Position numbers and translations under genes: made by a program
The notes under the pieces: model-generated
The model's input: only the letters and a program-made list of their open reading frames with translations
The model's database searches: none
What the model was told of the DNA's origin: nothing
DNA from: Acidobacteriaceae bacterium
GTDB taxonomy: Bacteria > Acidobacteriota > Terriglobia > Terriglobales > Acidobacteriaceae
Assembly: GCA_025360645.1 (NCBI GenBank)
Contig: JANYBT010000100.1
Location: 1-38,338, forward strand
Direction of reading: 5' to 3'
Length of the DNA stretch: 38,338 nt
Shown: positions 7,581 through 34,914 of the stretch, piece after piece
Layout: each line of letters begins with the position of its first letter
Position numbering within the stretch: the first letter of the stretch is position 1

Positions 7581-8183
7581 TTATTTGAGGCGTTTGTTGA
7601 TTTCGTCCCAGTTCACCACGTTCCACCAGGCTTGCAAGTATTCTGGCCGGCGGTTGTTGTATTTCAAATAGTAGGCGTGCTCCCAAACGTCGTTGCCGAA
7701 AATCGGGTGCAGACCCTGCGAGATCGGGTTGTCCTGATTGGGCGTGGAGAGAATTTGCACCTCTCCACCGGGCTTGCCCGCCAGCCAGACCCATCCCGAG
7801 CCGAACTGCTTCACTCCGGCATCGTTGAATTTCTCCTGAAAGCTCTTGAAGTCGCCAAACGTCTTCTTGATCGCATCGGCGATGGCGCCCGTGGGCTCTC
7901 CCCCACCGCCCGGCTTCATGATGCTCCAGAACATGGTGTGGTTGACGTGGCCGCCGCCGTTATTTCGCACCGCGCTGCGAATGGCCTCCGGAATGGCGTT
8001 CAGATCGCGAATCAGGTCCTCCGCGCTCTTGGCTTGCAAGTCAGGATATTTTTCCAGAGCGGCGTTCAGGTTTTTCACGTAAGCCGCATGATGCATGTCG
8101 TGATGCAGATGCATGGTCTTTTCGTCTATGACGGAATCGAGGGCCGTGTAGTCGTAGGGGAGTGCCGGTACTTCAAATGCCAT
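7581..8183 (-). CDS. sodA: Superoxide dismutase, Mn/Fe family
   Basis: Dismutates superoxide to oxygen and hydrogen peroxide. At 200 residues it has full family length with no signal peptide, so it is cytoplasmic. The metal ligands lie in MHLHHDMHH (His27), [11 protein letters not shown] and [18 protein letters not shown]. The Gln in the NQDNP segment and the GGGHVNH glycine pattern suggest the Mn-type or cambialistic form rather than a strict Fe enzyme; this is inference. It is divergent from the msrPQ oxidative-repair pair, so three oxidative-stress genes share one intergenic region. Confidence 0.95.
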
Positions 8184-23489: not shown

Positions 23490-25139
23490 ATGGAAATCCA
23501 TCCTAAGAGAAACCATGCCCGGGTGCTGTTGAGTTCTGTATTCGGGCCGTACGCACAGGACGACGAATTCGGGAGCCGGAAAATCAATCCCATGGAGCTG
23601 TATCACAATCAGGTGACGCGGGCGCAGGGCAGTTTCTCGTTGCGCATGTTCCATCGCTCCTGGGGCATCATGATGATCCAGGCCAACATCTCGGCCCCCT
23701 GCACGGTGCTGGACTTTCCCACGCGGGAGGCGTTCGCGCGTGAGTTGACGGCAAACCAGTATGACGTGGTGGGCATCTCATCCATCATCGTCAACGTGGC
23801 CAAGGTCAAGGAAATGTGCCGGATGGTGCGGAGTCTCTCGCCGCAATCCGTGATCGTGGTGGGCGGGCATGTGGCGGCCCTCGCGGACCTGGGAACCAGA
23901 ATCGATGCCGACCACATTGTGCGGGGAGAAGGCATTGCGTGGATGCGGCGTTATCTGGGCGAAGATGACCAGGCGCCGATTTCGCATCCCGCGATCGTGT
24001 CTGGCATGCAGACGCGGATCATGGGAGTGCGCCTGCCGGATCGCAAAGGCGGCACGGCTGCGACCATTATTCCATCGGTCGGGTGTCCGATGGGATGCAA
24101 CTTCTGCACCACCTCGGCGTTTTTTGGCGGCAAGGGAAAGTTCGTCAATTTCTTCGAGGGTGGCGATGAGCTATTTGAAGTCATGAGCCAGATCGAATCG
24201 GAACTGAAGGTCGATTCATTCTTCATGATGGATGAGAATTTCCTGCTGCATCGCACGCGGGCCATGCGCTTGCTGGAGCGGATGAAGGCGGCGGGCAAGA
24301 GTTGGGAGCTTTCCGTATTTGCGTCGGCCAATGCCATCCGCAAATACACCATGCAGGAACTGGTGGAACTGGGCGTGTCGTGGCTATGGATGGGGCTGGA
24401 ATCGCCGGGGGCCAGCTACAGCAAGCTGGAGGGCACGGACACCAAGCAGCTCACGCAGGAGTTGCGACAGCATGGGATTCGGGTGCAAGGCTCGACCATC
24501 ATCGGGCTGGAGCACCACACGCCCGGCAATATGGCGGCGGAAATTGAGCACGCGGTGGAACACGAGACCGACTTCCATCAGTTCATGCTCTATACGCCGG
24601 TGCCGGGAACGCCGCTTCACCAACAAATGGCGGAACAGGGCCGGCTGCTGGACGACGTAGATCCCGCGGACATTCACGGTCAATACGGATTCAACTTCCA
24701 GCACAACGCGATTGCCGGCAGCGACTCAAAGCGGTTTCTGGATGGGGCGTTTCAGCGGGATTTTGAGCGCAACGGGCCGAGCCTGTACCGCATGTGCCAG
24801 ACCTTGCTGCAAGGATGGAAGCGACACAAGGACGATCCGGATCCGCGAGTGCGCGAGCGCTTTGGCCGCGAGATGCAGAAGTTGCGCAGCGCCTACAGCG
24901 GCGCGTTATGGGCGATGGAGCGGCAGCTCAAGACCATCAATGCGGACGTGAGCCGGCAGATCGGGTTGTTGCGCCGCGAAGTGGAAAAGGAATTCCCGGT
25001 GATGGCGCGGCTGAGCGCGCAAGTGCTGGGGCCGCTGCTGCTGTGGACGACGCGGCGGGAAGAAAAGCGGTTGGCCGCGGGATGCACGTATGAGCCGCCG
25101 ATTATGGTGCAGCGGACAAACTGGGGAGCGGCAGCGTAA
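23490..25139 (+). CDS. B12-binding-type radical SAM protein
   Basis: A 549-residue protein. Residues about 55-150 look like a cobalamin-binding Rossmann domain (YDVVGISSIIVNVAKVKEM, SVIVVGGHVAAL, ADHIVRGEG) although the usual DxHxxG is not evident. The radical SAM core follows: VGCPMGCNFC places Cys199, Cys203 and Cys206 for the 4Fe-4S cluster, then FFMMDENFLL, WMGLESPG and STIIGLEHHTPGN. The last 150 residues are helical. Members of this class are methylases or lipid/hopanoid-modifying enzymes; the substrate here is unknown. GAGGA precedes the ATG at 23490; an upstream frame to 23373 lacks support. Confidence 0.85.
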   Translation: MEIHPKRNHARVLLSSVFGPYAQDDEFGSRKINPMELYHNQVTRAQGSFSLRMFHRSWGIMMIQANISAPCTVLDFPTREAFARELTANQYDVVGISSIIVNVAKVKEMCRMVRSLSPQSVIVVGGHVAALADLGTRIDADHIVRGEGIAWMRRYLGEDDQAPISHPAIVSGMQTRIMGVRLPDRKGGTAATIIPSVGCPMGCNFCTTSAFFGGKGKFVNFFEGGDELFEVMSQIESELKVDSFFMMDENFLLHRTRAMRLLERMKAAGKSWELSVFASANAIRKYTMQELVELGVSWLWMGLESPGASYSKLEGTDTKQLTQELRQHGIRVQGSTIIGLEHHTPGNMAAEIEHAVEHETDFHQFMLYTPVPGTPLHQQMAEQGRLLDDVDPADIHGQYGFNFQHNAIAGSDSKRFLDGAFQRDFERNGPSLYRMCQTLLQGWKRHKDDPDPRVRERFGREMQKLRSAYSGALWAMERQLKTINADVSRQIGLLRREVEKEFPVMARLSAQVLGPLLLWTTRREEKRLAAGCTYEPPIMVQRTNWGAAA

Positions 25140-25169
25140 GCGGAAAGACTTGGAAAATGCGGTCTGCCA

Positions 25170-25199
25170 TTGACAGTGTATCCCTTTATGGGATACACT
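25170..25199 (+). promoter_or_regulatory. Promoter with 10+10 bp palindrome
   Basis: A perfect TTGACA (25170-25175) and TACACT (25194-25199) are separated by 18 nt. An exact inverted repeat AGTGTATCCC (25175-25184) / GGGATACACT (25190-25199) with a 5-nt centre fills the space from -35 to -10. Transcription would begin near 25206, only 2 nt from the ATG at 25208. The arrangement predicts repression by a dimeric regulator. Confidence 0.7.
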
Positions 25200-25202
25200 G
25201 AA

Positions 25203-25219
25203 TTTGTATGGCATACAAA
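25203..25219. promoter_or_regulatory. Second operator-like palindrome over the start codon
   Basis: TTTGTATGGCATACAAA is a perfect 17-bp palindrome centred on 25211 and includes the ATG of the small regulator gene. It shares TGTAT/ATACA half-sites with the palindrome in the promoter just upstream. Confidence 0.6.
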
Positions 25220-25441
25220 GCGACGACCATTGAAGAACTACTCGCCATCATGAAGCGCGTGCAGGGGGAGAAAACGCTCACCGAGTTCGCCGCCGAACTT
25301 GATTTGTCCAAGCAATATGTGAGCAACGTCTTCAACCGCCGGAAGGAGCCCAGTCAACGTCTGCTCGACAAATTGGGCTTCGTTCGGCGAACCGCTTACA
25401 TCCAGTCGCCGACTGCTGCCAACCAGGAGAAGAAGAAATGA
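25208..25441 (+). CDS. Small XRE-type helix-turn-helix regulator
   Basis: A 77-residue protein with an HTH of the XRE type: LTEFAAELDLSKQYVSNVFNRRKEPS, where the second helix (SKQYVSNVFN) would read DNA and a short tail follows. No ligand domain. There is no ribosome site in front of the ATG, and the promoter places the transcript start within about 2 nt of it, so the mRNA is probably leaderless. Two palindromes cover the promoter and start codon, suggesting autorepression. Its TGA overlaps the ATG of the vWA gene by 4 nt (ATGA), a coupled two-gene unit. Confidence 0.8.
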   Translation: MAYKATTIEELLAIMKRVQGEKTLTEFAAELDLSKQYVSNVFNRRKEPSQRLLDKLGFVRRTAYIQSPTAANQEKKK

Positions 25442-26085
25442 AAGCAAACCAATCCCAATCCGCGCCCTCGGGTGGCAAGCAGCGGGTGCTAGTCAACTTC
25501 CTCCAAGACAGGTCGGGTTCCATGAGCACCAAGGTTCGGGATGTGATCGGCGGCTTCAATCTTTACCTGGAGGCGCTGGCGAAAGAACCTTTGGTGGAAT
25601 ATGGATTCTCGCTCACGCTGTTCGACACCGCCCCGGAATTAAGATACACGGCGGTACCACTGGCAAAAGTTGCCAAGCTCGACGAAACGTCCTACCGTCC
25701 CAGCGGAGGCACCGCGCTGTTCGACGCCATTGGGAACAGCGTGCAAACCGTGAGCCCCGACGGCTTCGACAAGATCATCACGGTCATCATGACGGACGGA
25801 GAAGAGAATTCTTCGCGCGAATGGACGATGCAAGCCATCCGTGAACTGATCCGAACCAAGGAAGCGGCAGGCAACTGGACCTTCGTGTTTATGGGAGCGA
25901 ACCTGGAAGCCTTCGGGCAAGGCGCCGCAATGGGCGTGAAGAGAGGGAACTCTACCCAGTACGATCCGGCAGACTACCGCGGGGTGTACAGGTCGCTGGC
26001 GCATAATACGAATCTATTCTCGTCCAGCCCAGCCCCGGCGGAAGTTGACTTCTTCAAAGAAGGGGAAGGCGTCAAGAAGCCCTAA
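25438..26085 (+). CDS. von Willebrand factor A domain protein
   Basis: A 215-residue cytoplasmic protein that is almost only a vWA domain. The metal-ion-dependent adhesion site is intact: DRSGSM (DxSxS) near residue 24, the Thr in PSGGTALFDAIG, and the Asp of IMTDGEENS. It lacks a signal peptide or partner domain, so it would act on another protein through its Mg site. It is translationally coupled to the XRE regulator by an ATGA overlap. Small vWA proteins of this kind occur with phage-like or stress regulators; the target is unknown. Confidence 0.85.
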   Translation: MKANQSQSAPSGGKQRVLVNFLQDRSGSMSTKVRDVIGGFNLYLEALAKEPLVEYGFSLTLFDTAPELRYTAVPLAKVAKLDETSYRPSGGTALFDAIGNSVQTVSPDGFDKIITVIMTDGEENSSREWTMQAIRELIRTKEAAGNWTFVFMGANLEAFGQGAAMGVKRGNSTQYDPADYRGVYRSLAHNTNLFSSSPAPAEVDFFKEGEGVKKP

Positions 26086-26159
26086 GAGATGCGGCGCGAC
26101 TTGGCTGACAGCTCATGGCATTCCTCATTTCCTCTTAACATGCCTCATAACATTCTTCA

Positions 26160-26915
26160 ATGAAGAAACTTCGTCGCCAGGGCAGTCACGGTTCAGGGAA
26201 GCAGGGCGGGCGAAATTCTCGTTTCCCGAGAGAGCTCGACGTGCTCTACGAAGACGATGCTGTCCTGGCGTTGAACAAACCCGCCGGGCTTCTGGCGGTG
26301 CCGGTGAAAGGCTCGGATGCTCCGTCGGCGTGGTCTCTGCTTTCTGCAGAACTGAAACGGAAGAGGCAGCGAGCATTTGTTGTGCATCGCATCGATCGCT
26401 TCACCTCCGGGATTCTGCTGTTTGCAAAGACCGAACGGGATCGCGACGCACTGGTGGGGCAGTTTCTCGACCATAGTCCGGTGAGACAATATCTCGCGGT
26501 GGTGCGCGGACATCTGGGCGCCCAGGATGCGACGCTGGTTCACTATGTTCGGCGGGAAGGAATGTTCCAAACGCTGAGCACTCAGCGCGACTCCCAGGCG
26601 GCTCGTGCGGAACTTCGCTATCTGGTCGAACGCCGGCTTCGCGGCGCTGCGCTGGTTCGAATCACGCTGGTGACGGGTTTGCAGAATCAGATTCGAGTGC
26701 AGTTTTCGGCGATCGGCCACCCGGTGATCGGCGACAGAAAGTATCACCCGGAGGAAGCGTTGGAGCGGCGAATTGGCCGGGTCGCGCTTCACGCAGGGCA
26801 TCTTCAGTTCATGCATCCGCGGTCGGGCGAAAATGTGTCGGTTGACTGCGAAATTCCGCCGGACTTTCAATCGCTGGTGCAGGCATTGTCACCGGCTCCG
26901 CGCGCGCGCCGGTGA
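26160..26915 (+). CDS. RluA-family pseudouridine synthase
   Basis: Converts selected uridines in rRNA or tRNA to pseudouridine. It has 251 residues and no S4 domain. The catalytic motif VVHRIDRFTSGILLFAK holds the Asp; ALNKPAGLLAVPVKG precedes it, and LVTGLQNQIRVQFSAIGHPVIGDRKYH follows, an RluA-class signature. The basic N-terminus (MKKLRRQGSHGSGKQ) is a plausible RNA-contact tail. I could not see a good ribosome site before the ATG. Which RNA position is modified cannot be said from sequence alone. Confidence 0.93.
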   Translation: MKKLRRQGSHGSGKQGGRNSRFPRELDVLYEDDAVLALNKPAGLLAVPVKGSDAPSAWSLLSAELKRKRQRAFVVHRIDRFTSGILLFAKTERDRDALVGQFLDHSPVRQYLAVVRGHLGAQDATLVHYVRREGMFQTLSTQRDSQAARAELRYLVERRLRGAALVRITLVTGLQNQIRVQFSAIGHPVIGDRKYHPEEALERRIGRVALHAGHLQFMHPRSGENVSVDCEIPPDFQSLVQALSPAPRARR

Positions 26916-34887: not shown

Positions 34888-34914
34888 AAGGGCTCCGCAT
34901 GTTGCGGAGCCCTT
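34888..34914 (+). terminator. 12-bp perfect hairpin after phosphoesterase
   Basis: AAGGGCTCCGCA (34888-34899), loop TGT, TGCGGAGCCCTT (34903-34914). It starts 43 nt beyond the stop codon. The stem is long and the loop short, as in intrinsic terminators, though the T-run after it is weak. The rest of the 34846-35158 gap has a small hairpin CCGTG/CACGG near 34984 and nothing else I recognise. Confidence 0.7.

Follow-up and report, generated by a model that had tools for sequence, protein, structure and literature searches.

What kind of genetic unit is formed by a small XRE-type regulator gene and the vWA gene that it overlaps, and does the regulator act upon its own promoter? The question is raised by one locus in the 38 338 nt stretch of Acidobacteriaceae DNA analysed here (contig C126 of genome G000, hereafter the window), which a first-pass annotation had described as an autoregulated, leaderless XRE–vWA cassette. 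Our study supports that description as probable, based upon half-sites that change together with the recognition helix and upon promoters that lie close to the ATG. The comparisons indicate a real, conserved and probably self-repressing unit that is likely to descend from phages. This type of circuit is familiar; its pairing with a phage-type vWA protein was absent from the literature searched (mostly freely accessible papers), which yielded no report of a vWA protein paired with an XRE or HTH regulator.

Architecture of the locus

The features of the locus, in window coordinates, are as follows.

25170..25175, + strand: -35 hexamer TTGACA, from the promoter scan
25174..25200, no strand: putative operator 1, a 27 bp inverted repeat with core GTATCC-N7-GGATAC, proposed from its long arms and the half-site comparison
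25194..25199, + strand: -10 hexamer TACACT, ending 8 nt 5' of the XRE ATG
25203..25219, no strand: 17 bp palindrome TTTGTATGGCATACAAA over the start codon, containing GCATAC, the operator 2 right half-site of relatives
25206 (+/-1 nt), + strand: predicted transcription start, placed from the position of the -10 hexamer
25208..25441, + strand: XRE-type HTH protein, 77 aa, Pfam HTH_3
25211..25216, + strand: GCA TAC codons (Ala2-Tyr3), at the position of the operator 2 right half-site
25425..25429, + strand: Shine–Dalgarno-like AGGAG of the vWA gene, 8 nt before the vWA ATG
25438..26085, + strand: stand-alone vWA protein, 215 aa, phrog_7371, with MIDAS-type residues

The two-gene unit is flanked by a radical-SAM gene ending at 25139 and a pseudouridine-synthase gene starting at 26160. 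The reported ATGA overlap of the 77-residue XRE protein with the vWA protein was confirmed, the XRE gene ending at 25441 and the vWA gene starting at 25438. This 4 nt overlap is common to the window and five related loci (L032, L034, L035, L182 and L207), and, taking the start adjacent to the Shine–Dalgarno-like site, it amounts to 44–62 nt in L033, L179 and L180. Stretches resembling AGGAG or GGAGA precede the vWA starts across loci.

The promoter, TTGACA-18 nt-TACACT, matches 10 of 12 consensus positions and was the one site returned by a scan of positions 24900–26300, against a mean of 0.4 in shuffled sequences. As the -10 hexamer ends 8 nt before the ATG, a start 6–7 nt past it would leave a leader of 1–3 nt; the -10 spacing thus agrees, as a prediction, with the earlier placement of the transcript start within 2 nt of the XRE ATG. 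Reading the sequence 5' of the window XRE gene revealed no Shine–Dalgarno-like site. Promoters were scored at 13 XRE loci, and in nine of these the best -10 ended 6–10 nt before the ATG (6 nt in L207, 7 in L089, 8 in the window and L182, 9 in L179, and 10 in L032, L033, L034 and L035), with scores of 8–11 of 12 and TTGACA, TTGACG or TTGATA as the -35 hexamer. At the other four (L178, which is decayed, L180, L181 and L172) the best promoter lay away from the ATG. The short distance in nine of 13 loci suggests that leaderless transcription is probably conserved in XRE–vWA cassettes. According to predictions for Acidobacteria, leaderless genes are frequent there (three of three genomes, mean 13.3 %, in the available text of PMC3160421), so the predicted leaderlessness of the XRE gene is unremarkable by itself. 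Folding of the first 95 nt as RNA gave no excess stability (z 0.97).

A viral contig (L223) also encodes a small phage XRE protein behind TTGACA and a TATTTT box that ends 6 nt before its ATG, and no vWA gene was found in L223 beside this leaderless-type gene. Small XRE genes with leaderless transcripts may thus extend beyond the XRE–vWA pair.

Putative operators and the recognition helix

The 27 bp repeat at the promoter reads CAGTGTATCCC-TTTAT-GGGATACACTG, with perfect arms of 11 nt and a loop of 5 nt. It had been described as a 25 bp palindrome that covers the TTGACA promoter wholly; the coverage of the spacer and the -10 hexamer stands, whereas the repeat is 27 bp long and takes in only the last 2 nt of the -35 hexamer. 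None of 300 shuffles held an arm as long as that of this repeat, and an arm of at least 10 nt (loop up to 7) occurred in 0.08 % of 20 000 random 120 nt stretches of the same first-order composition. The 38 kb window contains six perfect inverted repeats with arms of at least 8 nt and a loop of no more than 8, two of which are the 27 bp and 17 bp repeats.

Comparison with relatives revealed recurring half-sites. GTACGC occurs four times in L033 and L179, forming a pair of neighbouring repeats (6-N7-6 and 6-N6-6) whose final copy coincides with Ala-Tyr codons GCG TAC; L032, L034 and L035 have three copies of GTATCC plus GCATAC at the Ala-Tyr codons, and L207 has four copies of GACGTA. Four copies were matched by none of 1000 shuffles in each of L033, L179 and L207, and three copies by 14–45 of 1000 (1.4–4.5 %) in L032, L034 and L035; among 173 control upstream regions, none held four copies and four held three. 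In five of 11 loci (the window, L180, L181, L182 and L089) the six-base repeat count was not above shuffles, these having two copies only, a number reached by 43–70 % of shuffles. A longest inverted repeat that was no shorter occurred in 1 of 300 shuffles for L182 and in 3–7 of 300 for L032, L034, L035, L033 and L179, compared to 26 for L180, 41 for L089, 107 for L178, 208 for L181 and 256 for L172, again out of 300. The operator case for the window and L182 rests on long arms, and for L089, L180 and L181 neither repeat count nor arm length is convincing.

The half-sites change with the recognition helix. The XRE protein of L033 is 56 % identical to that of the window and has recognition helix SKQYLTDIYNGR where the window has SKQYVSNVFNRR, with half-sites GTACGC and GTATCC, respectively; the XRE proteins of L179 and L033 share only 45 % identity, yet have SKQYLTDIYKGR and GTACGC in common. 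This co-change is the strongest evidence, good though indirect and drawn from few loci, that each XRE protein reads its own operator, as expected of autoregulation. The operators lie after a consensus -35 hexamer, which would imply repression, not activation.

The 17 bp palindrome (25203–25219) spans the ATG at 25208, as had been observed, but the comparison did not support reading it as a second operator like the first. Operator 2 of the relatives lies in another register, and in the window its left half is degraded and its spacing is 2 nt shorter than in relatives, operator 1 being kept. With the left half lost, the 17 bp palindrome probably does not serve as an operator in the way that operator 1 would. 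We infer that it consists of the codon half-site and an adjoining GTAT, whose overlapping halves would misfit the same dimer spacing; the GTAT-NN-GCATAC pattern in the window has only two one-mismatch sites elsewhere.

The exact core GTATCCC-N5-GGGATAC occurs once in the 3.8 Mb genome, at the XRE promoter, and the XRE protein is therefore probably a dedicated autoregulator. Allowing two mismatches gave eight copies, compared to two for a reversed control pattern; seven are located within long ORFs and the eighth between genes. A wider XRE regulon was considered and rejected, as the exact core is confined to the XRE promoter and seven of the eight two-mismatch copies fall within long ORFs. The intergenic copy (G000:C97:85303-85321, equal to L241:1504-1522) lies about 150 nt before a 279 aa ORF and is a possible second XRE target.

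Viral contigs were scanned for the single pattern GTATCCC-N5-GGGATAC-N2-5-GTATCCC, and no credible operator of this form was found. One IMG/VR contig, L212, was discarded as a phage operator match, as its motif belongs to a short tandem repeat inside an ORF; positions 7680–7780 of L212 hold a tandem array of GTATCCCTGTGGGGGATAC-like units within a 399 aa ORF.

The two proteins and a one-chain form

The window XRE protein matched Pfam HTH_3 (E 3.5e-7) and, in PADLOC-DB 2.0.0, a collection of anti-phage defence models, HTH models only (best HTH_VI, E 5.7e-6). Its structure model has a mean pLDDT of 70.2. The best Foldseek match had E 0.055, none reaching E<=0.001, and no family therefore stands out by fold; its weak neighbours include C.Esp1396I (E 0.09) and structures of DdrO and CapH. 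The vWA protein had no Pfam model above the cut-off, no NCBIfam match and no PADLOC-DB 2.0.0 model match. It matched phrog_7371 over residues 14–189 (E 3.7e-45), a family that is listed as of unknown function and whose best rows are from Streptomyces, Pseudomonas and Pectobacterium phages. Its MIDAS-type residues are D24-x-S-x-S28, T92 and D120. All 52 aligned vWA sequences share D24, S28, T92 and D120, residues that would provide metal ligands as in a functional MIDAS. Folds of the vWA type usually hold a metal ion and serve for gripping other proteins. The vWA model (pLDDT 92.4) returned integrin I domains, TFIIH subunits, ArnAB and others among the best 50 rows of the fold search (Z 17.4–19.2); a shared vWA fold alone is no proof of function. 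Purifying selection appears to act on both genes, with dN/dS values of ~0.15 for XRE (versus L032, L034 and L035) and ~0.16–0.24 for vWA (versus L032 and L034).

In one IMG/VR contig (L089, 39 998 bp), whose other products include members of DNA polymerase, helicase and endolysin families, an XRE domain, a zinc finger and a vWA domain share one 378 aa frame. The zinc finger was recognized by eye as a C2H2 pattern, and an internal in-frame ATG (3687) after AGGAG could give a separate zinc finger–vWA protein. This fusion, a single case, suggests that XRE and vWA act jointly. The same contig encodes, at positions 2603–2841, a tRNA-Lys together with two CUA-anticodon tRNAs (tRNA-Pyl according to ARAGORN), the latter being possible amber suppressors. 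Coding density spoke clearly neither for nor against changed stop codons in L089.

Distribution and genomic context

Relatives of the vWA protein were found in species genomes (57) and viral contigs (79), and the family was present in 215 of 50 697 phage records (E<=1e-5) and 25 of 72 556 plasmid records. At E<=1e-14 the vWA protein was found in 14 of 398 genomes of the window's family. Ten of the 14 have an XRE gene directly upstream (G000, G400, G427, G437, G491, G568, G606, G608, G648 and G744) and four have a similar vWA gene without one (G623, G647, G673 and G711). L032, L033, L034 and L035 are contigs of G608, G437, G648 and G606, respectively, and were counted once; the G648 copy is cut by a contig end and the G606 copy contains unknown bases. 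With L089 added to these ten genomes, the pair is conserved beyond the genome in which it was noticed. Two of the ten pairs are decayed, with a frame change in XRE and a truncated vWA in G568 (L178) and an internal deletion of vWA in G427 (L180), so the unit can be lost. The XRE profile matched 10 of 300 genomes of the window's family at E<=1e-8, and a wider profile at E<=1e-9 matched, among 396 genomes of the phylum, the window's own genome only. By these low counts in family and phylum, the XRE–vWA pair is rare and sporadic.

The two proteins are not always together, as vWA occurs without XRE in the four genomes named above and XRE without vWA at L181 and L172. A profile scan of all collected loci placed XRE at the paired loci, L181 and L172 only. 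Genes upstream of vWA were surveyed from 145 vWA loci, 144 with a usable vWA match, omitting 22 loci (17 near-duplicates and 5 paired loci) and keeping ORFs of 45–170 aa among the three longest upstream, which gave 135 proteins plus the window control. HTH_3 was detected in one of these 136 proteins, the window control itself, and one other protein matched the winged-helix model HTH_39. DUF3310 proteins lie directly upstream of vWA in some distant phage loci (6 of the 136 upstream proteins). XRE relatives were found in 2 and 14 viral contigs in two scans. At L181/L194 (G631:C746), the same XRE type lies tightly before a non-vWA gene (L194:1-567, minus strand), whose product runs for 189 aa to the contig end and is 45 % identical to a protein of a 595 kb uncultured phage and 39 % to one of Virus Rctr197k; it had no Pfam or PHROG match.

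Neighbours of the cassette differ between loci, for example a histidine kinase gene upstream in L032 and, in L033, a GlnD-like gene some 1.2 kb before the XRE gene, and this suggests that the cassette is mobile; neither element ends nor an integrase came to light. The neighbours scanned in Pfam for the window are of housekeeping types or matchless. Neither an endonuclease nor a methylase was found among 14 window neighbours or among 23 neighbours at eight other loci (one in the wrong frame), and the same neighbours included no MoxR ATPase or Ter gene. The pseudouridine-synthase neighbour (E<=1e-40) was found in 5 of 61 genomes, the window's own included; in the other four, the radical-SAM gene was not within about 1.5 kb of it, so no empty site is demonstrable. 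The sporadic spread, varied neighbours and phage relative fit a mobile, phage-type gene unit.

In G400 (L182:1299-1358, contig C110), a tRNA-Ser 3' fragment lies about 130–190 nt upstream of the XRE gene. Along 60 nt it shares 95 % identity with an intact tRNA-Ser(GCT) at another place in the G400 genome, and it looks like an old attachment site.

Comparison with described systems

The closest parallels in design are the C-protein modules (C.PvuII, C.AhdI, C.Esp1396I and C.Csp231I), which control type II restriction–modification. As described in the available text of PMC4824078, PMC2997769 and PMC3850674, these share with the unit a small XRE autoregulator whose gene often overlaps a downstream effector gene, two neighbouring palindromic operators, known regulator–effector fusions and a leaderless mRNA, the latter predicted here from a -10 box 6–10 nt before the ATG at nine of 13 loci. 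However, C-protein modules have an operator upstream of a weak -35, so that activation is followed by repression, whereas here the -35 is of consensus type and, in the window, L032–L035, L179 and L182, the repeats start where it ends or later. The effector is also a vWA protein, with no endonuclease or methylase among the neighbours scanned. As there is no activator site upstream of a weak -35 and the scanned neighbours include no restriction–modification enzymes, we do not class it with them: the unit works like a C-protein module and is not one.

By analogy, the unit appears equally to resemble a phage repressor with an accessory gene. Phage repressors of the CI/Cro type regulate themselves via operators over promoter and start, and lambda cI is leaderless when transcribed from PRM. 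The XRE gene is similar in its operators over promoter and start, its predicted leaderless mRNA and its phage relatives, and differs in that no divergent lytic operon was seen, the protein is a bare 77 aa HTH and the partner is a vWA protein. Phage vWA proteins of phrog_7371 belong to the same family as the window vWA, although no such XRE gene lies beside the distant members examined. In DdrO/IrrE, CapH/CapP and XRE-antitoxin pairs, the XRE protein represses its own operon and the second protein can act on it; the partner there is a protease or toxin, whereas here it has a vWA fold. ArnAB is a fold neighbour of the vWA model (8s05, Z 17.7). ArnA–ArnB of Sulfolobus is a two-protein module with a vWA protein that represses gene expression; in the available text of PMC6509490 it differs in being archaeal and phosphorylation-dependent, with an FHA partner and no XRE protein. 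MoxR–vWA systems and TerF-type proteins likewise include vWA proteins, some of them in phages (PMC7159879 and PMC7824862, as far as their available text extends), but the neighbours scanned here held no MoxR or Ter gene.

Proposed mechanism and alternatives

We consider it likely that the locus is a mobile two-gene unit of phage type, subject to negative autoregulation by a dedicated regulator. A leaderless bicistronic mRNA would be made by RNA polymerase at the near-consensus promoter, and an XRE dimer bound to operator 1 between the -35 and -10 hexamers would shut the promoter. In relatives, a dimer would also bind operator 2, which lies about 22 bp downstream and spans the start site and ATG. 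Such autorepression would hold XRE and vWA levels low and steady, and a separate ribosome-binding site at the ATGA overlap would serve for vWA translation. The vWA protein would be of the metal-dependent, peptide-binding type and most likely contacts XRE, or else a phage or host protein, a contact that might tune or use the XRE switch. The sequences themselves show the anatomy, the conservation of pair and layout, the co-change of operator and helix, the purifying selection and the one-chain form in L089; from these we infer repression, dimer binding, the transcription start and mobility, and the partner and purpose proposed for vWA are a guess. A more specific version, a vWA-gated switch spread by phages in which metal-loaded vWA binds XRE (or an invading phage peptide) and sets operator release, is advanced only tentatively, and with the same reserve the L089 protein would be a fused form of XRE and vWA.

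This unit would tie a vWA subclade to a dedicated autorepressor, once in one chain, and so offers a small cloneable unit for testing the function of phrog_7371. It also provides naturally occurring pairs of operator and recognition helix, one half-site being written in codons 2 and 3 of the regulator, and an example of a C-protein-like design used outside restriction–modification.

Other explanations were weighed against dedicated negative autoregulation. The XRE protein could be a chromosomal small phage repressor that silences phages with the same operators, in the manner of immunity or lysogeny control, with vWA as a moron gene. Relatives of both proteins occur in phages, the L089 phage contig holds the pair in one frame, the same XRE type in G631 precedes a gene whose best phage match (45 %) is in the 595 kb phage, and the G400 cassette lies near the tRNA-Ser 3' fragment with intact copies elsewhere. 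Set against this, the single-pattern operator scan of viral contigs led to one contig, with a tandem repeat in an ORF, and the Pfam-scanned neighbours in the window are housekeeping types or matchless; we regard this explanation as unlikely. Somewhat less probable again is a toxin–antitoxin module with vWA as the toxin and XRE as antitoxin and autorepressor. A small, overlapping, autoregulated bicistron of sporadic occurrence is typical of such modules (general knowledge, and the available text of PMC3874152), but the model shows a vWA/integrin-I type fold, no toxin family was matched in libraries that hold described families only, both domains share one frame in L089, and vWA occurs without XRE in four of the 14 family genomes and in phages.

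A true C-protein activator–repressor circuit, in which vWA replaces the endonuclease and the second gene is delayed on arrival in a new host, is very unlikely in our judgement. The small XRE protein, leaderless transcript, overlap, tandem operators and fusions agree with it (available text of PMC4824078, PMC2997769 and PMC3850674), as does the weak Foldseek neighbour C.Esp1396I (E 0.09). However, the operators follow a consensus -35 with no upstream activator site seen, methylase and nuclease are absent among the neighbours scanned, and a profile search of PDB sequences had no C protein among its 13 matches. The least credible explanation, which we hold to be highly improbable, is that the 27 bp repeat serves only to terminate the radical-SAM transcript from upstream, the layout having arisen by chance. 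Although a terminator scan lists the repeat (stem 11, loop 5, then AATTTGT), its T tract is weak, an inverted repeat occupies the same position with respect to the XRE ATG in L032 and L033, where different genes lie upstream, and the half-sites co-change with the recognition helix.

Elsewhere in the window, positions 34888–34914 hold another 27 bp inverted repeat, with 12 nt arms and a 3 nt loop, which is perhaps a terminator.
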